Part shown: positions 638 through 17,378 of the stretch, piece by piece
How positions within the stretch are numbered: the stretch's first letter is position 1
Layout of the letters: every line of letters begins with the position of its first letter
NCBI GenBank assembly: GCA_030613055.1
Contig: JAUWMR010000043.1
Location: 1 to 36,589 of the forward strand
DNA from: Desulfobacteraceae bacterium
Lineage (GTDB): Bacteria; Desulfobacterota; DSM-4660; Desulfatiglandales; Desulfatiglandaceae
Direction of reading: 5' to 3'
Length of the DNA stretch: 36,589 bases
Program-made: the position numbers and the translations under genes
The notes under the pieces: generated by a model
Seen by the model: only the letters and a program-made list of their open reading frames with translations
What the model was told of the DNA's origin: nothing
Database searches by the model: none

Positions 638-3600
638 TCAGTCAACGATCTTATATTTATCCGGCTGGCCCAATCCTCGTAGTAGTTCGTTGATTTCTTT
701 TTTAAGCTTGATCATTCGTTCTTCACGTCCAACGGCCAGCTTACCGAACCGTTCGAGTTCCTCCATATTCTGAACCAATTTCTCTTCCGCCTGTCTACGT
801 TCAGTTATATCACGAAAAACAACCACGACACCCGCGGTTGTTTCACCATGACCTATCGGCGTGGCTGAATATTCTACCGGAAAATTGGTGCCGTCCTTGT
901 GCCACAGTACCTCGTCATCCACGGAAAAGGCCCTTCCCTCGGTGTAGGCCTTGTACATCGGGCAATCATCCTGCGGGTAGGAACTGCCGTCGGCGTGGCT
1001 GTAATGTGTTGTATCATGAACGTTCATACCCAGCAGTTCTTCACTGGAGTAACCCAGCATCCTGTAAGCAATGGGATTAATAAAGATGATATTACCCTTT
1101 GTATCAACACCAAAAACACCATCCCCGACTGATTCCAAAAGCAGGCGCGAACGTTCCTCAGCTTCTGCGAGTTCTGCCGTCCGCTTTTCGATCCTGTGGG
1201 TCATTGAATTGAAGACTTTTGCCAGGGCGCCGACCTCATCCTTGGAGGTAAGATCAATGTGATGGGAATAGTCGCCTCTTTTGATGGTTTGCGCTCCCGC
1301 TTTGAGCACGGCAAGAGGCGAAATGATTCGGCGCCTCAGCAGGAAGAAAAAATAGATGGAAAACCCGATCGTGATAGCGATCAGTACCGTGATGCCAAGG
1401 ATGATGGTCTGGTTGCGTTGACGCACCAGGTTCAGCTCACCGGCGGTTCTCCATTCCAGTAAGGAGAAGAACTGGTCGACCGGTTTCATGATCCTGGCCT
1501 TGGCGTCGTGATACTCTTTTCCATGCAGGAGCTTGCGTGCCATGGCCATGTCCGGCTCACCCTTGATCGTGAACTGGCCGTTGTCATTTTTATACAGACC
1601 CTTGACGGCGTTCATGGCAACGTCTTCCAGATTGATCAGATCGTCCGACTCTTTTTTTGCCACTGACAGTTTTTCCCGTTCCTCATCGGAGAACCCAAGA
1701 TCGGTTATCCTTTGCTCGATGCTATACATCTCGCCGTCTTGATCCAGTTCCACAACCCCGGCGGCCACATGGTCCCAGTAGGAACGGGTGAACTTCTTAG
1801 GGTGGGCCTGCTTGCCGTCGCGAATGGCAATGATTGTCTGGAAGTAGTGCTCGTATTTCGGGTCTCCGGTCACCACGTATGTACGGGCAAACCGTGTCAA
1901 ATCGTCGGATGATTGTTTGAGTTCGAGGGCCAAGTTTAGAGATTCGACCTTCCATGTCTCGATGGCGTGATACTGCCGTTGGCTTTCCAACAGCATGATG
2001 ACGAAGGCAGCACTGGAGACGATCAACGACGCAAAGACGAAGGAGATAAGGAGCAGGGTATCCCGAATGGAGAGTTGCCTGGGCCGTCCCTTCATCAACC
2101 AAACAATGGCGATGATCACCGCGATGCAGGCGAAAATGGCGCCCAGGCTCTGTAACAGGAATTTAGCTTGATCGAACTGGACCTGCTCAGGAGGGGGGGG
2201 CTCTGCAAACACTGCCGCCACGGGCACACACTTGCGGTGGATCTCTTGGACCTCCTGCGGCGATAGCGACCCCAGGGCTTTATTCAGGATTTCGGCAAGT
2301 TCGGGCCAGTCCTTGCGTATGCCGAATGCCAGGGGAACCGGTGGTTGTGATGTCCTTCCCATTACCCGCAGGTTGGTGATGAGTTCCTTCTCCATCAGGT
2401 AAATGGCCACGGCCCTGTTTCCGACATAGGCGTCGGCTTCTCCGCGGGATACGGCGTCCAGGCAGTCACTGGTGTTCATGTACTCTCGTATCTTAATTTC
2501 AGGGTGATCGTGTTTAAAACGCTTTATGGTGTAATAACCGCTCTCCAGTGCAACAGTCTTGCCGTAAAGATCCTTGTCACCACTGAAATATGGTTTATCC
2601 TTATGACCGACAATGATCTGCGGGATCGTCAGGTAGGGCGTCGTAAAGTTAAAGAATGGTTCCCGATCCGGCTTTGGGGTGATGTCCATCAGAGCATCAA
2701 GGCTTTTGGATTTGACGGCATCAAGGTTCTCTTTAAAAGAGGCTGGAACGACATTGAGGACGCCACCCAAACGCTTATTTATGGCATTGAGGTAGTCGAC
2801 ACCAATGCCCCGGGGCACACCCGCTTCATCCACATAATTCAGCGGTGGCCAGGCATTCATGATGCCCACATGAATTTGGGGATGCGCTTCCAGCCAGGCT
2901 TGTTCTGCTGGAGTTAGATCAGTTAAAGCAACATCTGATTGAGTCAAAGGCAGCTTTGATTTGGGCTCCAGACCAAATATCAAAAATTTAAGGTCCGGCT
3001 CATCCTTGATGACTCCCGCCTCATACATGGCATTGGCGATACGGCGCACACGCTCCGGGTCAATCGACCCCAGGGGATAGGTTTCCGGCAGGATCAGTTT
3101 CGCTGTCTCCTTTGCCTCGTAGCGCAATGCTTCACGGCTTTTGTTGGTTGTGTTGTACTTGCTGGAAATCAGCTCGATGATTTCTTCAGGGTGTTGTAGA
3201 GCATAGGTCCAACCCCTCAGGGATGCCTCTTTGAATGCCTCGACCAGTTCCGGACGCTGCTCGGACAGCTTTGCGGAGGTAATTAGAGAGTCACCATAGA
3301 AATCCACGCCATAAGCAGCCGGGTCAAGGATGTTGTAGGGGATACCCTTTTGTTGCAGGATAAATGGCTGGTTGGTGATATAGGCACTCATCACATCTGC
3401 CTGGCCGTTGACGATAGCCATGGGATCGAAATTGTGATCGATGTAGGATAGTTTCTTAGGATCGATGCCGTTCTTTGCAAAGAAGGAGAGGAATTCGACA
3501 GCATTGCGCTCCTGAGCGGTTAACATCAGACGTTTGCCGTACAGATCACCGGGCGTACGTATCCCCGCGTCGCGACGACTCAGCAGCACCAGGGCGGAAT

Positions 3601-3931
3601 GTTTAAAGATATTGGCCAAGAGTTTGACCGGCTTACCCTGGAGATAAGCCTTGGTCGCCGAAGAGGAGACCGTGGCAAATTGTGCACGACCCGACAGCAC
3701 CTCTTCGTTCACGTCCATGCCGGACTGATACTCCCGTATATTGACATCCAGGCCGACCTCTTTATAGAATCCCATTTCCTTAGCGGCGTAATAGCCCGCA
3801 AATTGAAACTGGTGTTTCCAGAAGAGCTGCAGGGTGACGGTCTCTGCTTTTTCAGCCGCAAATGTTGGGGCGTTTGAAAAAACGAAACACAATGAAAACA
3901 AAAGAATTAGAAAATATCTTAGGATGCTCAT
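638..3931 (-). CDS. Double solute-binding-domain sensor with HAMP and PAS, no output domain
   Basis: A 1097-aa membrane sensor. A signal peptide (about 1-25) is followed by an NMT1/THI5-type binding domain (about 30-325; VTLQLFWKHQFQFAGYYAA) and an SBP_bac_3-type domain (about 345-570). Spans at about 597-613 and 625-648 precede an extracytoplasmic helical region of about 190 residues. A third span (842-864), HAMP (about 866-920) and one PAS/S-box domain (about 928-1048, ending VVVFRDITERRQAEE) follow. The last 50 residues are a charged helix with no H-box, ATP-binding, GGDEF or EAL motif, so an unlinked partner must give the output. The NMT1/THI5 family includes binders of pyrimidines, sulfonates and similar small molecules, and the ligand here is unknown. 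The start is ATG with AAGGAG just upstream. The domain order is clear, but the function beyond sensing is inference. Confidence 0.85.
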   Translation of the reverse strand: MSILRYFLILLFSLCFVFSNAPTFAAEKAETVTLQLFWKHQFQFAGYYAAKEMGFYKEVGLDVNIREYQSGMDVNEEVLSGRAQFATVSSSATKAYLQGKPVKLLANIFKHSALVLLSRRDAGIRTPGDLYGKRLMLTAQERNAVEFLSFFAKNGIDPKKLSYIDHNFDPMAIVNGQADVMSAYITNQPFILQQKGIPYNILDPAAYGVDFYGDSLITSAKLSEQRPELVEAFKEASLRGWTYALQHPEEIIELISSKYNTTNKSREALRYEAKETAKLILPETYPLGSIDPERVRRIANAMYEAGVIKDEPDLKFLIFGLEPKSKLPLTQSDVALTDLTPAEQAWLEAHPQIHVGIMNAWPPLNYVDEAGVPRGIGVDYLNAINKRLGGVLNVVPASFKENLDAVKSKSLDALMDITPKPDREPFFNFTTPYLTIPQIIVGHKDKPYFSGDKDLYGKTVALESGYYTIKRFKHDHPEIKIREYMNTSDCLDAVSRGEADAYVGNRAVAIYLMEKELITNLRVMGRTSQPPVPLAFGIRKDWPELAEILNKALGSLSPQEVQEIHRKCVPVAAVFAEPPPPEQVQFDQAKFLLQSLGAIFACIAVIIAIVWLMKGRPRQLSIRDTLLLISFVFASLIVSSAAFVIMLLESQRQYHAIETWKVESLNLALELKQSSDDLTRFARTYVVTGDPKYEHYFQTIIAIRDGKQAHPKKFTRSYWDHVAAGVVELDQDGEMYSIEQRITDLGFSDEEREKLSVAKKESDDLINLEDVAMNAVKGLYKNDNGQFTIKGEPDMAMARKLLHGKEYHDAKARIMKPVDQFFSLLEWRTAGELNLVRQRNQTIILGITVLIAITIGFSIYFFFLLRRRIISPLAVLKAGAQTIKRGDYSHHIDLTSKDEVGALAKVFNSMTHRIEKRTAELAEAEERSRLLLESVGDGVFGVDTKGNIIFINPIAYRMLGYSSEELLGMNVHDTTHYSHADGSSYPQDDCPMYKAYTEGRAFSVDDEVLWHKDGTNFPVEYSATPIGHGETTAGVVVVFRDITERRQAEEKLVQNMEELERFGKLAVGREERMIKLKKEINELLRGLGQPDKYKIVD

Positions 3932-9685: not shown

Positions 9686-11671
9686 ATGAATCAGGGAAGA
9701 ATAATCGAATATATTGACCAAAGCAGATTCGTCTGTACCCTTTGCCTGGAAGACAAAGGTAACAGGTTGCATTTGTTGACGCCCTTGAACCGAGAAGTCA
9801 ATCTGTCACCAAAAAGGGCAATCCTGATTTCTGATTCTACTGTTGATACCATGAAGCCCAGAGAAGAGCTGTTAGAGATGCTGAAGCAGGCACAGGAAAA
9901 CAGAATAGGACTCAAAGGGCAAATAGACGTCAAAGAGCTCTGGATGCTGGTGAACAATGAAAGAGAGAGTTTTGACAACAAATACCTCGCCCAGCTCGTT
10001 TTCGGAGAGGTCATTGCCGATGATCATGTCTCCGCTATAGTGCGGGCGCTGTTTGAAGACCATGTGTATTTTAAGATGAAAGATAGTCGATTTTTTCCCA
10101 ATTCCGAAGGTAAAGTAGATCAAATTAAAAAGCAAGAAGAGGAAAATGCCTTAAAGGCAAAGAAACTCGAGCAGGGAAGCGCCTGGCTCAAACAGGTACA
10201 GGAGGGCAATAAAACTGATGGGCCATCCTGCAGGAATGAAATTATTGACCTTCTTGTTCAGATGGCGCTCTATGGGAATGATGCGCAGGAATTCAAATAC
10301 GGGAAGGAACTGCTTTCAAGGGTGGGCATAACCGATATCCGCAAATCCCGGGAAATGCTTATAATGTTAGGAATCTGGGAAGAGGATGAAAATCTTGATC
10401 TTATCCGGTTAGGAATTAAAACGTCCTTTACAAAAAGGCAACTGGATGAATCGGCTACCGTAGCCCAGGCGGAATTTGACCGAACCGAACGCGAAGACTT
10501 AAGAGATATTCCTGCATTTACAATTGATGGCCCCCTCACCCGTGATTACGACGATGCCCTGAGCCTTGAAATAGCAGGGGACTCCATACATATCGGCATC
10601 CACATTGCTGATGTGGCCGGGGCTATTTTACCCGGTAGTGTCCTTGACCTGGAGGCAGCAGAAAGGGCGGCGTCTCTTTATCTGCCCCGCAGGCAGATAC
10701 CCATGTTTCCTGATGAACTATCTCAGGACATCCTGAGCCTGAAACAGGAATGCGACCGCCGGGCCATCTCTCTTTTAGCCCGGTTTGATAGAAACGGTGA
10801 GTTGCTTGGCTACCGGTTTGTGCCCAGTGTGATTCGTATAAGTAAGCATTTGACCTATGATGAAGTGAATGAAAGACTGAATGACGATGATTCGTTCAAA
10901 ATGATGTATCAAATGAGCCAGCGGCTGCGCCAGAAAAGGATGGACAGAGACGCTCTTGATCTTTCACTTCCCGAATTACACGTAAAACTCAATGATGACT
11001 CATCGTTGTCATTGGCATTGATTGAGCAGGATACGCCCTCACGAATGATAGTGGCTGAATTCATGATCCTGTACAACTGGCTGGTGGCAAGGTTTTTGAG
11101 TGATAATCAAATTTCCGTTCTCTTCAGGACTCAGCAGGAACCAAATGAGAGATTGCCTTTAGAAGAACCGGGACATATCTTTTTCGTTTTCCAGCAGCGC
11201 CGGAAGCTCAGCCCCCTTCAGATAAAAACTTCACCGGCCCCCCACACTGGCTTGGGCCTGGACATCTATACCCATGCCACATCTCCCATTAGAAGATATC
11301 TTGATCTTGTGAGTCAGCGTCAAATAATGAGCTTTTTCAGGGGAACAAAGCCAATTTATGATGAGAAAGAGCTTGAAGAGATCAGGCTGTTTATTGAACC
11401 GGCAATCAAGGATCTTGCGAGGGTGAAGAGAAACCGCCAGCGCTACTGGATCCTGAAGTACCTTTGCCAGCATCGTGGGGAAAATTTCAAAGCCCTGATC
11501 CTGAACGAACTAAAGACCAAATATCGTATAGTATTAAAAGATTTTCTTCTTTTAGCTGAAATAAAGCAGCAAACCGGTGTGATTCTCAGTCCGGGACAGG
11601 AGATCCTTGTTAAGGTCCAGAAGGCCGATCCGTGGGATGACCTGCTCCGGCTTGAATATGTTGATGTATAA
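9686..11671 (+). CDS. RNase II/R family 3'-5' exoribonuclease
   Basis: A 661-aa RNB-family exonuclease that would degrade RNA processively from the 3' end. The N-terminal 260 residues are cold-shock/helical in style. The RNB domain follows (about 270-595), with the active-site block DGPLTRDYDDA giving acidic residues D281, D287, D289 and D290. The later HATSPIRRYLDLVSQRQ is the conserved RNA-cleft motif. The C-terminal tail (about 600-661) looks like a short S1-type barrel. This is shorter than E. coli RNase R (813 aa) and near RNase II length, and it resembles the VacB-like group seen in cyanobacteria and Deltaproteobacteria. The ATG at 9686 has only a weak ribosome-binding site. It is divergent from the M24 peptidase. 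Confidence 0.9.
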   Translation: MNQGRIIEYIDQSRFVCTLCLEDKGNRLHLLTPLNREVNLSPKRAILISDSTVDTMKPREELLEMLKQAQENRIGLKGQIDVKELWMLVNNERESFDNKYLAQLVFGEVIADDHVSAIVRALFEDHVYFKMKDSRFFPNSEGKVDQIKKQEEENALKAKKLEQGSAWLKQVQEGNKTDGPSCRNEIIDLLVQMALYGNDAQEFKYGKELLSRVGITDIRKSREMLIMLGIWEEDENLDLIRLGIKTSFTKRQLDESATVAQAEFDRTEREDLRDIPAFTIDGPLTRDYDDALSLEIAGDSIHIGIHIADVAGAILPGSVLDLEAAERAASLYLPRRQIPMFPDELSQDILSLKQECDRRAISLLARFDRNGELLGYRFVPSVIRISKHLTYDEVNERLNDDDSFKMMYQMSQRLRQKRMDRDALDLSLPELHVKLNDDSSLSLALIEQDTPSRMIVAEFMILYNWLVARFLSDNQISVLFRTQQEPNERLPLEEPGHIFFVFQQRRKLSPLQIKTSPAPHTGLGLDIYTHATSPIRRYLDLVSQRQIMSFFRGTKPIYDEKELEEIRLFIEPAIKDLARVKRNRQRYWILKYLCQHRGENFKALILNELKTKYRIVLKDFLLLAEIKQQTGVILSPGQEILVKVQKADPWDDLLRLEYVDV

Positions 11672-11685
11672 ATTTGAGGGTCCAG

Positions 11686-11827
11686 TAAAAAGTCGGAAAG
11701 TACGTCATTGCGAGCCCCACATAGCGGTATAAACTCCGCGAAGCAATCTCATTGGCTGTAACATCTTGAAATCAGGAGATTGCTTTGTCGCTTCGCTCCT
11801 CGCAATGACAGATGAAATGACTTTTTA
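11686..11827. repeat. Palindromic interspersed repeat (GTCATTGCGAG type)
   Basis: Outer arms TAAAAAGTC (11686-11694) and its complement (11819-11827) enclose perfect inner arms GTCATTGCGAG (11704-11714) and CTCGCAATGAC (11799-11809). Further pairing lies inside, with GAAGCAATCTC facing GAGATTGCTTTG. Elements with these ends are scattered through many bacterial genomes as REP- or MITE-like sequences. It lies 14 bases after the RNase stop and faces the convergent M99 gene, so its RNA hairpin may also end transcripts. It has no coding capacity. Confidence 0.75.
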
Positions 11828-11908: not shown

Positions 11909-13690
11909 TTATTTCAGGGCAAAATTGATCTTACCGAGTACGATTCGGCCTTTCTTCACGATGGCCTCATATTTGCTTTTTTTAGCATGATTATTAAATA
12001 ATTTTCCCATGCTCTGTTTTTCATGCGCCTTTAGCCGGTATTGGCCAATACTCAGGTGAACCCCCCTGGTACCGTGGAGATTTGTCCGGACATGGTCAAG
12101 GCATATTTCATCTCTTGCTGATACTGAGAGCGTATCCCCCGGTTTTAATACTGCGTGAGAGTGGTTGTTGACCTTCAGTAACAAATAGTCAAACGAGGGC
12201 GGGCTCAGGCTCACATAAAACCGGGACAAAACATTGCTGCCAAGAGAAGCAACAATTTCATACATCTCCCCTTTATTTTTCAGGGAATAACGTCTCATGA
12301 GATCTGTCGCAGTGTTGATATCATAGCCTCTGTCTTCGCCCGTATTATTTTTCCAGTTCCCCACAAACCCTTTGAAGTTTATCTTTAATGCCGGAGTTAA
12401 CGCATACGAGGGAACAATATCTAAAATTTTAATGTGGTCTCCCCTGACCAAATGGAGTGTTTCTCCTGGCAATAAAACACTTCGGTGTCCCCTGGCCTTG
12501 ACCACCAGATATTTAATCTTTTGCGTACGCTCTGCCATACCGCCTGTCACCGCGCGAGTACCGGATATCCTGATGGCAATTTCAGCAAATTTCTGGTTAT
12601 CTTTTCTGACAAGCAGGTTTGTGTTTTTTTTGATGACAAAATCTTTACGGAAATCGCTTAAATCGCCGTATCCTAAAATATCCAGGCTTAATCCCCGTTC
12701 ATAATTGGCCTCAATATGGGTTATGTTAATGGTATCTCCGGCCTGGAGGTTGATAGTTTGCTTGTCCTTGACTACGTTTGCTGTTTTTCCATTGATGGAA
12801 ATCACCAGATATTTCAAAACAGGCGGGTCTAAGGCAATTCCCGGGTGTTCCGGGATAATATTGAATAACTTCATAAAGGCATTAATGACCAGGTTGTGAT
12901 ATTGCACCTTCAGATTAATGGAAGGGAGAAACTTGGAGGTTTCAACGCCGAAGGCAGGAATATGATGTTTTGTAAGGGCATAATAGGTGGCAGACTTTCT
13001 CTGTTCCTTGTGAGTGCTTTCAGGACTATCTGTCAGGGTGTTGTTGAAGTGAAATTTGTACAGGTCATTTTTGATATAGGGGTTTACTTGTGCAATGACT
13101 TTTCGGGCGATTTCTCCTAAATTTATATGTTGTCCTGTCTTCTGTGGGGTATATGTTTCGCAATCCGCGATAACAGACTGACCAAACCGCGTTGGATTCC
13201 GCCACTTATCAATGTAATCAGGATAGTAATAACCCGAGCCATCGTGGAGGTTCAGGAGATAATCGCTTTGCCCGATCAGCTTCTTCAGGATGGAGACGAT
13301 CTTGTCCTCCATGCTGTCGGTGGTGTTTTCATGGGAGAATTTTCTGTTCATATCCCCGTGCGGACCTCGCTTGTTCAATAGTATTGAGTAGAAATTGGCC
13401 CTTGGTACGACTATGAGATTCCCTTTTTCAAGGCTCATGTCTGCATAAAGATCAGCCGATAGAAAGCCTCCCGGCTCATTACCCTGTATCCCTCCTATCA
13501 ACATCAGGGTTTTGCCTGGTTGCTTGCCGTAAATCTTATACACATTTAATTCATAGACGGTATTGGGAAAATAGACTAAGTGCTCTCTTTGTGATCGCGC
13601 AGAGGAGGGGGAGTAAAAGAGGGGGATTTGAATCACGAGGCATAGAAAAATAAAGACAGCCTTTTGTTGAAGGCAGGAATTATGGAGCAT
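11909..13690 (-). CDS. Secreted M99-like zinc carboxypeptidase (Csd4/Pgp1-like)
   Basis: A 593-aa exported peptidase from the ATG at 13690. GAGGTGG lies just upstream, and this start is preferred over one eight codons earlier. A signal peptide ends near residue 32. The catalytic domain (about 38-285) has GGIQGNEPGG with Q69 and E72, LNLHDGS with H149, and FGVETS with E250. Glutamine in place of the usual histidine zinc ligand, and these spacings, match H. pylori Csd4 as I recall it (Q46, E49, H128). Csd4 and C. jejuni Pgp1 trim peptidoglycan tripeptides and help set helical shape. After the catalytic domain come three similar beta-rich repeats starting KYLVIS (about 293), KYLVVK (393) and DYLLLK (501). 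It overlaps the coiled-coil gene by 11 bases. Confidence 0.75.
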   Translation of the reverse strand: MLHNSCLQQKAVFIFLCLVIQIPLFYSPSSARSQREHLVYFPNTVYELNVYKIYGKQPGKTLMLIGGIQGNEPGGFLSADLYADMSLEKGNLIVVPRANFYSILLNKRGPHGDMNRKFSHENTTDSMEDKIVSILKKLIGQSDYLLNLHDGSGYYYPDYIDKWRNPTRFGQSVIADCETYTPQKTGQHINLGEIARKVIAQVNPYIKNDLYKFHFNNTLTDSPESTHKEQRKSATYYALTKHHIPAFGVETSKFLPSINLKVQYHNLVINAFMKLFNIIPEHPGIALDPPVLKYLVISINGKTANVVKDKQTINLQAGDTINITHIEANYERGLSLDILGYGDLSDFRKDFVIKKNTNLLVRKDNQKFAEIAIRISGTRAVTGGMAERTQKIKYLVVKARGHRSVLLPGETLHLVRGDHIKILDIVPSYALTPALKINFKGFVGNWKNNTGEDRGYDINTATDLMRRYSLKNKGEMYEIVASLGSNVLSRFYVSLSPPSFDYLLLKVNNHSHAVLKPGDTLSVSARDEICLDHVRTNLHGTRGVHLSIGQYRLKAHEKQSMGKLFNNHAKKSKYEAIVKKGRIVLGKINFALK

Positions 13691-14504
13691 TTTCCACCTC
13701 AAATTCTTTCTCAAAGATCAGATTTCCAGATTGATCGTATATAAGGACTTTCATTGAGGAAGGTGATTCGCTTTGTGAACCTAAAAAGAATTCTCCTTTG
13801 ATTGCCTTGAAGCGCTTGATTATAAAATGCTGGCCCTGTTTGTAAGTAATTGGGAGCCCGTTTTTAAGCGCCACCTTCGGGTATGTCCACGACTGCGGGG
13901 GGGCTGTTTGATTATTCATGGCAATCATGTGCAAATAGCCATCCACCGGGGTTTTATCTTCTTGTATGTTGATCAAGTTAAAGGCAATATTTATTTTTGT
14001 CTTTTCCTTGCGAATTGAAAAGTCCCTGACATCCACCATTGTTTCCCTGGTTACTCTCTCAAATCTTTCAAGCAGGCTATCCTCCAGGACTGGCGTAACT
14101 TTTTTTTGTTCAACCTTTTCATGGTCACCCGGTATAATTATTTTTTCATCGATGGCTTTTGGAGGATGAATACGGTCTTCCAACAGAGTCAGGTGCTGTC
14201 TGGTTCTATATAGATCTCTTCTGGCGGTATCAACCTCATGCTGAAGCACTTTTAGCCGTTTCGACATGGTATCGTTTGTCCAGCGTTTGCCAAAATAGTC
14301 ATTAATAATGAGGATGGAAATCACAAGATAGAGTACCATGATTAGTGATGCCCAAAAAAGTAACCTTGGAGAAACCTTATAACTTCGAATCTTTCCGACT
14401 TTTCCGACAACCATTATGGTCAAGTCGGATTCCCGCTTAGGTTTTCTTTTTGCCGTGCGGGCTGTATTTAGAGGGGGTGCCATGTCTCTTTTTTGATCTT
14501 CCAA
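13680..14504 (-). CDS. Single-span membrane protein with coiled coil, unknown
   Basis: A 274-aa protein with a basic cytoplasmic N-terminus (about 1-46), one membrane span (about 47-67; LLFWASLIMVLYLVISILII), a coiled coil (about 75-112) and a periplasmic beta-rich domain (about 140-270). No enzyme motif is seen. The start overlaps the upstream transpeptidase gene by 37 bases, and an internal ATG at 14483 (MAPPL) is possible. The tail overlaps the M99 gene. Wedged between two peptidoglycan-trimming enzymes, it may anchor or position them. Helicobacter uses one-span proteins such as Csd5 for this, but I see no clear sequence relation, so the role is inference. Confidence 0.7.
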   Translation of the reverse strand: MEDQKRDMAPPLNTARTAKRKPKRESDLTIMVVGKVGKIRSYKVSPRLLFWASLIMVLYLVISILIINDYFGKRWTNDTMSKRLKVLQHEVDTARRDLYRTRQHLTLLEDRIHPPKAIDEKIIIPGDHEKVEQKKVTPVLEDSLLERFERVTRETMVDVRDFSIRKEKTKINIAFNLINIQEDKTPVDGYLHMIAMNNQTAPPQSWTYPKVALKNGLPITYKQGQHFIIKRFKAIKGEFFLGSQSESPSSMKVLIYDQSGNLIFEKEFEVENAP

Positions 14505-15784
14505 TCTTTTCCACTCCTTATGAGCAACAGGTCTTTCATGCCCAAATCGTAATAGGTGCCTGCCCTGTAACCCTGCTTAAACCGGACCAGCGCAGTGCGG
14601 CCTGATCGCTTGATAATCTTTAGTTGACTGATCCTGATACTTACCGAGGAATACTTTTTGTTCAGCCGGGCCTTGCGGCTTTTCCAGGCGGACAAATCCA
14701 TCCCGTCAGATCGAAAGTCCCGATCATAGAAGGAGATGTAGGATCTGAGGTTCTTTTCCTCCCATGCCTTTTTCCAGGAATGAACAAGTTTCTCGATCTC
14801 TTCAAAAGGAGTTGGGGGCCGGAAAGAAGGCACCTTTTTTACTGCCTTGTGCTCAGTAAAAAATTCACCGATTATTTTCCACTCATTGCTGTTTTTTCCG
14901 AAATATAGTCTTTTTTCTCCCCTGCTCTCAAATAACTCGGTGCTGTAGGTCTGGTCAAATCTGGCCAAAACCACATCATTTGCCTCATAGAGCTGAAGAT
15001 TGTCAATGCTTACACAAATCTTTTTATATTTATTCGCAAGCCTGACCTTATGTTCCTTCCAGCGCTTCCAGTCCATACCTCTTGATGAAAAGCGCTGGCT
15101 GTAAAGATCCATGTATTGACCCATGTCCTTATTCTGCCAGGTGCGACTCCATTTTTTTATCAGCTTCTCCAGCCTCATTGATTCCTTTTTCAGGTTTTTA
15201 TCAGGAATCATATTAATCTTAGGTGTTATAATAACAGGTGTTTCATACAACCGTATATATCTGGACAGGTCTTTGATGCTATTGTTTTCCAGAACAATGC
15301 ATCCGTTCGTATCCCTGGGTTTGAGGGTTTCATTTGTCCCGTGGAACCAGATCCCGTAACCACCCTTCCCATGTTTTTTATCTAACTGATTCGGGTAGTC
15401 AATTGGAAAGGCCCTGATCCCGTAAGTGGAGGAGAGTTCCTTTTTCACATATGTTTTTGTGCAGAAATAGATTCCTTCAGGGGTTTTTTTGTCATTTTTC
15501 TTTGATTTGGGCCCGCTGTTTTCTCCGGTTGAGCACCTGAATGTCTTTACAGGTTTGAATCGGTTATCTTTATGATATACGAAAATCTTTTGAGCGGATT
15601 TGTCCACAAGGATCGCGTAATCATTTCCCTTTCCAGGCCATTTTAGCAGGTGGACCGGGATAAGCTTAACAGCGGCATGAGCCCCCTGAAAACTAAAAAG
15701 GAGGACCAGGAAGGAAAAAATGATTCCCCAAATTATACTAATCGATACAAAATTTTTCTGCGTGTTTTCCGTTTTGAGTTTCAT
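14468..15784 (-). CDS. YkuD-domain L,D-peptidase/transpeptidase with two NTF2-like domains (Csd6/Pgp2-like)
   Basis: A 438-aa envelope enzyme. A signal sequence or span covers about 18-37. The YkuD domain (about 54-190) has H148 (FHGTNE) and nucleophile C162 (DTNGCIVL); the usual serine before GC is Asn-Gly here. Two similar domains follow at about 203-310 and 328-438, each starting W-x3-W and containing FxSxGMD, then a W-K segment. These are NTF2-like. H. pylori Csd6 and C. jejuni Pgp2 pair a YkuD domain with one NTF2-like domain and act as L,D-carboxypeptidases that trim tetrapeptides and affect helical shape. A crosslinking role is the alternative. It starts nine bases after purB and overlaps the coiled-coil gene. 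Confidence 0.82.
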   Translation of the reverse strand: MKLKTENTQKNFVSISIIWGIIFSFLVLLFSFQGAHAAVKLIPVHLLKWPGKGNDYAILVDKSAQKIFVYHKDNRFKPVKTFRCSTGENSGPKSKKNDKKTPEGIYFCTKTYVKKELSSTYGIRAFPIDYPNQLDKKHGKGGYGIWFHGTNETLKPRDTNGCIVLENNSIKDLSRYIRLYETPVIITPKINMIPDKNLKKESMRLEKLIKKWSRTWQNKDMGQYMDLYSQRFSSRGMDWKRWKEHKVRLANKYKKICVSIDNLQLYEANDVVLARFDQTYSTELFESRGEKRLYFGKNSNEWKIIGEFFTEHKAVKKVPSFRPPTPFEEIEKLVHSWKKAWEEKNLRSYISFYDRDFRSDGMDLSAWKSRKARLNKKYSSVSIRISQLKIIKRSGRTALVRFKQGYRAGTYYDLGMKDLLLIRSGKDWKIKKETWHPL

Positions 15785-15793
15785 GTTCCGGTA

Positions 15794-17086
15794 CTAACTA
15801 AATACCCTCTCAAATATGTCGTCCACATGCTGGAGATGATAATCCAGATCAAACATATCTTCAATCTCTTTTTTACTCAAGTATTTGGCGATTTCCTGGT
15901 CCCGGGCAATAAGCTCTTTAAATCCCTTGCCCGTCTCCCACACTTTCATTGCATTTCTCTGGACCATAACGTATGCCTTCTGCCTTTCAATCCCCTTTTC
16001 AGCTAATTTCATGAGGAACTGCTGGGAAAAAATAAGCCCCCTGGTTTTCTTCAGGTTTTCGGACATATGGTCGGGATGAACCACAAGGCCACCAATGATC
16101 CCGGTCAGTCGGTGAAGCATAAAATCAATCAGGACGGTACTGTCCGGGCCAATTACTCTTTCCACGGATGAATGGCTGATGTCGCGTTCATGCCAGAGGG
16201 CCATGTTTTCCATGGCAGCAAGGCAATTGGAACGCACCAGGCGGGCAAGACCCGAGATGTTTTCACACCCGATTGGATTTTTCTTATGGGGCATGGCGGA
16301 TGATCCCTTTTGTCCTCTGGCAAAGGGTTCCTCTGCCTCAAGGACTTCCGTTCTCTGGAGATGTCGTATTTCGACTGCAATCTTTTCCAGCGTACCTGCA
16401 ACAATTGCCAGACTTGTAAAATATTGCGCATGTCGGTCACGCTGTACTATCTGTGTGGATATCTCCGCGGGTATAAGCCCGAGATTTTTTAAGGCACGGG
16501 CTTCAATTTCCGGGGAAATATTTGCAAAGGTACCTACGGCACCGGACAGCTTACCATAGCTGATCACATCACGGGCTTCGATCAGGCGCTTCATATTCCG
16601 TTTCATCTCAGCATACCAGACAGTTAGCTTGAGGCCAAAGGTAATAGGTTCGGCATGGATGCCATGGGATCGCCCGATCATCACGGTGGACTTGTGTTCA
16701 AACGCCCTTTTCTTAATAACTTCCATAAATTCTTTGACATCCTGAATTATTAAGTCCATGGCCTCTTTTAAAAGGAGTGCGAAACTGGTATCTAAGATAT
16801 CGGATGACGTCAGCCCTAAGTGGATATATCGTGAGTCAGGCCCAACATATTCAGCCACGTTTGTCAAAAACGCGATAATATCATGTTTGGTCTCCTCTTC
16901 TATCTCCAGGATGCGCTCAACAGAAAACGCCGCTTTTTCCTTGATATTTTTAAAAGCATCTTTCGGGATTACGCCTTCTTCCGCCATGGCCTCGCATGCT
17001 GCAACTTCAACCTCAAGCCATTTTGCATATCGATTCTCAGACTCCCAGATGCTACCCATTACAGGGCGCGTATAGCGACTGATCAT
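15794..17086 (-). CDS. purB: Adenylosuccinate lyase
   Basis: A 430-aa fumarase/aspartase superfamily lyase that works twice in purine synthesis, converting SAICAR to AICAR and adenylosuccinate to AMP, with release of fumarate. The signature loop GSSAMPHKKNPIGCEN is intact, as are TSSDILDTSFAL and the GRSHGIHAEP motif. The start is ATG at 17086 (MISRYTRPVMG) with AGGAGT six bases before it. A 34-codon upstream extension of the frame looks non-coding. Three envelope genes follow with a gap of nine bases, so a housekeeping gene may carry them on one transcript. Confidence 0.95.
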   Translation of the reverse strand: MISRYTRPVMGSIWESENRYAKWLEVEVAACEAMAEEGVIPKDAFKNIKEKAAFSVERILEIEEETKHDIIAFLTNVAEYVGPDSRYIHLGLTSSDILDTSFALLLKEAMDLIIQDVKEFMEVIKKRAFEHKSTVMIGRSHGIHAEPITFGLKLTVWYAEMKRNMKRLIEARDVISYGKLSGAVGTFANISPEIEARALKNLGLIPAEISTQIVQRDRHAQYFTSLAIVAGTLEKIAVEIRHLQRTEVLEAEEPFARGQKGSSAMPHKKNPIGCENISGLARLVRSNCLAAMENMALWHERDISHSSVERVIGPDSTVLIDFMLHRLTGIIGGLVVHPDHMSENLKKTRGLIFSQQFLMKLAEKGIERQKAYVMVQRNAMKVWETGKGFKELIARDQEIAKYLSKKEIEDMFDLDYHLQHVDDIFERVFS

Positions 17087-17156
17087 ATTAAAACTCCTGA
17101 TTTCAGAGATCGTTAATAGTTGAGTGGTTGAGTCCCCGCCTGCCGTACTGCGGGCA

Positions 17157-17378
17157 GGACATGGGGATCTCTTTTTTAAAAGCCGCATATGCTTACATCA
17201 TTACATGGCACGGCAGTTAGGACCTGAAATTCAAGCAACGGACAGCCCCATGTAGAAATCTTCATCATTAAGACCGCCATCCCTGCCTTCTCCGAGCCAA
17301 TGGTCAAAGCCCTGGGGGCGTGTTGCTGGCATTAGGTGAATTTGTGATGCGGCTTTTAAAAAAGAGATTCCCATGTCC
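17157..17378. mobile_element. Segment bounded by near-perfect 32-base inverted repeats
   Basis: The arms at 17157-17188 and 17347-17378 are complementary over 32 bases with one mismatch (core TCTCTTTTTTAAAAGCCGC). They enclose 158 bases. The intergenic gap of 330 bases between purB and the prenyltransferase is almost filled by it. A 33-codon minus-strand frame lies wholly between the arms. No transposase and no clear target duplication are seen; the flanks share only GTAC-type bases in opposite orientation. It could be a non-autonomous mobile cassette or a very long RNA hairpin. Confidence 0.5.
17231..17332 (-). CDS. Small open frame (33 aa) inside the inverted-repeat segment
   Basis: It reads from an ATG at 17332 and begins MPATRPQGFDHWLGEGRD, then continues with an acidic, protein-like stretch to ...FYMGLSVA. 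No Shine-Dalgarno site precedes it, and I do not recognise the family. Its position exactly between the arms of a 32-base inverted repeat makes it worth noting. It may equally be a chance frame or a remnant of a larger gene. Confidence 0.3.
   Translation of the reverse strand: MPATRPQGFDHWLGEGRDGGLNDEDFYMGLSVA

Follow-up and report, generated by a model that had tools for sequence, protein, structure and literature searches.

Trimming of peptidoglycan peptides is described for Pgp2, an enzyme of the Csd6 type that converts tetrapeptides into tripeptides, and for Pgp1, of the Csd4 type, which converts tripeptides into dipeptides (PMC10151779). The structure 7o21 represents a further wall enzyme, Bd1075 of Bdellovibrio, for which the mechanism of one-sided targeting was called unknown by Banks et al. 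in 2022 (PMC8938487). Contact with bactofilins from the membrane has precedents: the tail of the M23 endopeptidase LmdC binds bactofilin, with a value of about 15 uM for LmdC 1-38, and the binding is disturbed when the hairpin is altered (PMC10945521); Csd5 of Helicobacter pylori, described in 2012 as restricted to this species (PMC3310797), binds the bactofilin CcmA via its cytoplasmic region (PMC9507126). Here we describe a locus of three overlapping genes from a Desulfobacteraceae bacterium (assembly GCA_030613055.1), located on contig JAUWMR010000043.1, of which positions 1 to 36,589 were analysed (the window). The genes encode a Csd6-like enzyme, a membrane protein that we call MID and a Csd4/Pgp1-like enzyme of the M99 family. 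We consider it fairly probable that they form a bactofilin-associated peptidoglycan-trimming module, in which MID is a transmembrane adaptor that connects the two periplasmic carboxypeptidases with the bactofilin cytoskeleton. The features of the locus, in window positions, are:

14468..15784, minus strand: csd6-like gene, an open reading frame (ORF) of 438 aa; secreted L,D-carboxypeptidase-type YkuD enzyme with two Cds6_C (NTF2-like) domains
15299..15343, minus strand: YkuD catalytic pair H148 ... C162, corresponding in the alignment to His and Cys in Bd1075
13680..14504, minus strand: MID gene, an ORF of 274 aa for a one-span membrane protein, starting at TTG 14504 or at an in-frame ATG 7 codons on
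14373..14423, minus strand: cytoplasmic beta-hairpin of MID, residues 28-44 (AlphaFold2 strands 28-33 and 39-44), the proposed bactofilin-docking motif
14169..14369, minus strand: membrane helix and coiled coil of MID, residues 46-112 (AlphaFold2 helix; predicted local distance difference test, pLDDT, >90 over most of its length)
13695..14042, minus strand: periplasmic immunoglobulin (Ig)-like beta-sandwich of MID, residues 155-270 (AlphaFold2 strands 157-269)
11909..13690, minus strand: csd4/pgp1-like m99 gene; secreted metalloenzyme of the M99 D,L-carboxypeptidase type, its C-terminal half long and beta-rich
13475..13486, minus strand: metal ligands Q69 and E72 (QxxE), invariant in 21/21 relatives
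13244..13246, minus strand: metal ligand H149, invariant in 21/21 relatives

The AlphaFold2 model of MID (mean pLDDT 78) shows a hairpin, one long helix and then a sandwich, and an alignment of 31 MID members reveals a conserved N-terminal LTVMI..VGKVRSFKIS that precedes the membrane helix. In hhalign, MID matched LmdC-type M23 peptidases from related genomes with a probability of 96 (E 1.6e-9, alignment columns 32-126), the match covering hairpin, membrane helix and coiled coil. A hidden Markov model (HMM) of the M23 hairpin plus transmembrane segment (TM) only was then ranked against 1018 ORFs from a part of the loci described below; 13 M23 proteins with this type of N-terminus came first, followed by 28 MIDs (best E 1.5e-7) ahead of all other ORFs. 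In the reverse search from the MID side, M23 proteins occupied ranks 1-4 among the non-MID ORFs at weaker E-values, 0.003 at best. Judged by these alignments, the N-terminal half of MID resembles that of LmdC-type peptidases, with an apparent Ig-like sandwich in place of the peptidase. An earlier interpretation of the locus from its letters alone (the sequence-only reading) had seen in the middle protein a one-span coiled-coil protein, which agrees with the single membrane helix and coiled coil of the model, and had credited it with no recognised homologue, which the kinship to LmdC-type peptidases corrects.

MID is not an LmdC, since an M23 domain was matched neither in it nor among the families listed for its 30 aligned relatives; it shares with LmdC no more than the docking half, namely the cytoplasmic beta-hairpin, one membrane helix and the coiled coil. 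No Pfam family matched the window protein, and the 30 relatives gave weak matches. DUF6776, a bactofilin neighbour elsewhere, was considered as a relation and dropped, being absent from the 25 listed of 48 weak Pfam matches of MID members. Foldseek returned generic beta-sandwiches for the MID model, and VIA placed the sandwich model on a GH2 Ig-like domain (Z 11.3, rmsd 2.1 over 94 residues); as a clue to function this fold was uninformative. The topology follows from gene fusions: in three loci (L247, L248, L249) a Csd6 enzyme carries the MID sandwich at its C-terminus, with a bactofilin adjacent. Since the Csd6 enzyme is of the periplasmic type, the fusion assigns the C-terminal domain of MID to the periplasm and so its tail to the cytoplasm. 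In the proposed model MID would work like Csd5, both being bitopic proteins with the tail to bactofilin and a beta domain in the periplasm. Csd5 carries an SH3 domain and has ties to MurF and ATP synthase; MID gave no Pfam SH3 match, and its C-terminal domain model matches Ig-like sandwiches.

Three sets of loci were used to follow the genes beyond the window: the host genome plus 60 relatives (61 genomes), 50 named M99 loci selected by motif, nearly all from metagenome-assembled genomes (MAGs) labelled Deltaproteobacteria or Desulfobacterota lineages, and 40 M99 loci found in 218 genomes drawn phylum-wide. The latter two sets share some genomes (L228 and L163, for example, look alike). Among the 61 genomes MID homologues occur in 41, M99 in 22, Cds6_C in 29 and bactofilin in 47, and in 17 of the 22 M99-bearing genomes all three genes stand next to each other on a single contig, the set being interrupted by contig ends in two others. 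Csd6 and MID genes both adjoin M99 in 34/50 motif-selected and 23/40 phylum-wide loci; 14 phylum-wide loci have neither neighbour, and 8 of these fall into a separate, divergent M99 clade. The trio occurs widely in Desulfobacterota and is not limited to a single genome, a limitation that the sequence-only reading had named as fatal to its proposal.

A same-strand bactofilin gene lies near the module in 13/40 phylum-wide and 17/50 motif-selected loci, mostly overlapping M99 or within 120 nt of it. It directly follows m99, overlapping or within ~120 nt, in L153-L163, L165, L166, L168, L181 and L182, while L174, which looks like locus L087 of genome G008, has the order bactofilin-csd6-m99. The full order csd6-MID-m99-bactofilin is found in relatives. 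In L239 and L244 the order is csd6-MID-m99-M23-bactofilin, so that an M23 peptidase gene of LmdC build stands in the same operon as MID. Five linked bactofilin genes were checked against Pfam, and all scored above the Bactofilin cut-off. On a tree of 80 distinct M99 sequences the 28 bactofilin-linked loci need 9 changes, at least 4 of them forced by well-supported branches, and the link is therefore not confined to one clade; a single origin with later losses is possible. The idea that MID docks on bactofilin had been set down from the hairpin and the one bactofilin-csd6-m99 locus of G008 before the wider M99 loci were examined, and the gene order fits such docking independently of the likeness of the hairpin. 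Bactofilin was found in 36/41 MID-bearing as opposed to 11/20 other genomes (Fisher p 0.008, ignoring shared ancestry). A separate observation concerns the host, in which one bactofilin gene (L085:6964-7922, G000:C24) stands directly upstream of an apparent F1Fo ATP synthase operon; for Csd5 of H. pylori an interaction with ATP synthase has been reported (PMC9507126).

Both enzymes of the module are new members of known families. The Csd6-like protein matches YkuD (PF03734, E 2e-21) and, over two stretches, PF24125 (Cds6_C, E 7e-40), all above the curated Pfam cut-offs, and bears out the YkuD enzyme with NTF2-like domains of the sequence-only reading. Its nearest solved structure by phmmer is Bd1075 (7o21, E 2e-47), with Csd6 (4xzz, E 1e-21) and Pgp2 (6xj6) also found, and H148 and C162 are invariant in 20/20 relatives. 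With Csd6, Pgp2 and Bd1075 it shares the order of YkuD and then Cds6_C as well as the aligned catalytic His and Cys; it differs by having two Cds6_C domains as opposed to one, and some of its relatives add the MID sandwich as a C-terminal domain. No plasmid copy of csd6 was found, and a PHROG comparison gave no useful match. One variant, L090:7216-10152, which adjoins MID without M99, is a frame of 978 aa that adds a long further part to the Csd6-like protein.

The M99 protein matches Peptidase_M99 (PF17033) with E 2e-39 and 136 bits against a gathering cut-off of 27, and its nearest solved relative is H. pylori Csd4, both by phmmer (4q6m, E 1e-32) and by Foldseek with the model (4wck, E 9e-27). 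Q69, E72 and H149 align in phmmer with the metal motif Gln46/Glu49/His128 of Csd4 (numbering of PMC4220969), and R108, R116, N115 and E250, invariant in 21/21 relatives, map by alignment to Csd4 Arg86, Arg94, Asn93 and Glu222, E250 being the putative catalytic Glu. Fold, QxxE...H motif and these four equivalents are thus common to the protein and Csd4/Pgp1. It departs from them in Asn147, which takes the position of Csd4 His126 and is invariant among relatives, in a longer beta-rich C-terminal half of ~300 aa (the whole Csd4 chain has 437-439 aa) and in the adjoining Csd6-like gene. The model (mean pLDDT 79.6) has weak stretches, e.g. 100-112 and 379-389, so that the geometry of the metal site is taken from the alignment. 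The M99-like peptidase with its Gln-Glu-His set, as the sequence-only reading had it, is borne out by profile and residue conservation, and the structural model, for which it had foreseen a possible conflict, matches Csd4 best and so does not refute the putative site.

Residues are numbered from the ATG at 13690, which is a more likely start of m99 than the TTG at 13714 that the ORF tool chose (11909-13714, 601 aa; Q77/E80/H157 in that count). With this start MID and m99 overlap by 11 nt, and csd6 and MID by 37 nt, in line with the single linked unit of overlapping genes that had been recognised from the sequence. Two variants of the m99 neighbourhood were seen at other loci: L170:7938-9104 encodes a second M99-like protein, diverged and in tandem with an intact copy, that has NNIPGGMPGG in place of the GGIQG.E motif and is by its sequence perhaps a non-catalytic partner, and at L210:5014-5913 a VanY-type D,D-carboxypeptidase gene adjoins the m99 of another M99 subfamily.

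In the mechanism we propose, MID would cross the inner membrane once, its cytoplasmic beta-hairpin docking on bactofilin filaments in the way of the LmdC hairpin that it resembles, while the coiled coil and the Ig-like sandwich would extend into the periplasm and hold or position both carboxypeptidases. By family precedent the Csd6-like enzyme would trim tetrapeptides to tripeptides and the Csd4-like enzyme tripeptides to dipeptides, both working in series at the place marked by the filament. Crosslinking would thereby be lowered on one side and the cell would bend. Binding of the hairpin to bactofilin, recruitment of both enzymes and curvature are what we infer by analogy, the role in curvature being taken from Csd4/Pgp1, Csd6/Pgp2 and Bd1075. 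The chances seem to us evenly balanced that MID is moreover the first of a new transmembrane adaptor family linking bactofilin filaments with peptidoglycan enzymes other than M23 peptidases, combining an LmdC-type docking half with an exchangeable periplasmic end, either an M23 peptidase or a recruiting sandwich.

Several observations weigh against MID as a bactofilin adaptor. An HMM of the hairpin only (24 residues) gave no significant match in either direction, and the TM alone does not carry the MID/M23 signal either, which needs hairpin plus TM. For Csd6 of H. pylori no interaction with CcmA was observed (PMC9507126), so that the arrangement here either differs or involves an indirect contact. 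The parts of the module are also separable, since several relatives have MID without the enzymes, in the order purB-MID-rnb, and csd6-m99 stands without MID in Desulfobulbaceae and in genome G037. In the latter (L138/L089) there is a direct overlap between csd6 and m99, and the first residues of the m99 frame, LEDQGRGMAAD, resemble the start of MID, which suggests a clean loss of MID. Finally, no bactofilin gene stands beside the wall enzymes in the window or in any of the 20 loci of its M99 clade in the tree, and five MID-bearing relatives, several of them incomplete MAGs, are without a bactofilin match. These last two points would favour MID as a peptidoglycan-side or membrane scaffold for both enzymes that works independently of bactofilin in the window's clade, linkage to bactofilin being a separate, lineage-specific matter. 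We regard this as unlikely, as the window-clade MIDs keep the hairpin with its consensus, the window's genome has three bactofilin genes elsewhere, near G000:C84:133966, C24:14050 and C77:17429, and bactofilin occurs in 21/22 M99-bearing genomes (Fisher p 0.011, again ignoring shared ancestry).

The module might also act in recycling or in the attachment of outer-membrane proteins, trimming or detaching wall-linked peptides in the manner of DpaA/YafK, and not in cell shape. The YkuD part does match LdtF_DpaA_YafK, although weakly (E 7e-10) and far below the family cut-off; it is much closer to Bd1075, Csd6 and Pgp2 and shares their Cds6_C domain, its partner belongs to the Csd4/Pgp1 family, known members of which act in shape, and relatives show the bactofilin linkage, which together make this role improbable. 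That the three genes are mere neighbours held by conserved synteny has to be judged against the genes that flank them:

15794..17188, minus strand: purB, upstream neighbour in conserved synteny, TIGR00928 E 2e-164
9686..11671, plus strand: RNase II-family gene (rnb) with an RNB domain, convergent downstream neighbour in conserved synteny and present at the same place in relatives

PurB ends ~10 nt upstream of the csd6-like gene, the trio stays between purB and the RNase II gene throughout the window's own clade, where bactofilin genes lie at other sites, and both genes flank MID even where csd6 and m99 are missing. In other clades, however, csd6-MID-m99 moves as a set without purB and rnb and with bactofilin instead, and the MID domain is fused to Csd6, so mere adjacency was already unlikely and we give it hardly any credence. 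PurB and rnb were accordingly rejected as functional partners and are seen as syntenic neighbours only, given the purB-MID-rnb order without the enzymes. The likely functional partner outside the trio is bactofilin and not purB. The sequence-only reading thus held for the families, the residues, the linked set and its co-occurrence, and changes in the kin of the middle protein and in the likely outside partner.

Just downstream of M99, some other clades have housekeeping genes (glycerol-3-phosphate dehydrogenase, TsaD, rRNA adenine dimethylase, a phosphoesterase, GcpE). A dispersed repeat occupies window positions 11700-11815 in the intergenic space from the RNase II gene to m99; it has 24 matches in the genome, the longer ones mostly at 86-97% identity. 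Further away, positions 641-3931 encode a double periplasmic-sensor protein of 1097 aa, in which an NMT1-like domain and a family 3 solute-binding domain precede HAMP and PAS.

Limited searches of the open-licence literature found no earlier description of the operon. As a whole, two predicted carboxypeptidases with a proposed, peptidase-less LmdC-like adaptor that is tied to bactofilin in relatives, the module varies the known theme of bactofilins and wall enzymes, its new part being the likely role of MID. If MID does found such an adaptor family, this would be a direct way in which Csd4/Csd6-type carboxypeptidases are guided to one side wall. The trimming carboxypeptidases as well as the bactofilin CcmA have a part in cell shape in Helicobacter and Campylobacter, and the operon makes the link between them directly testable.

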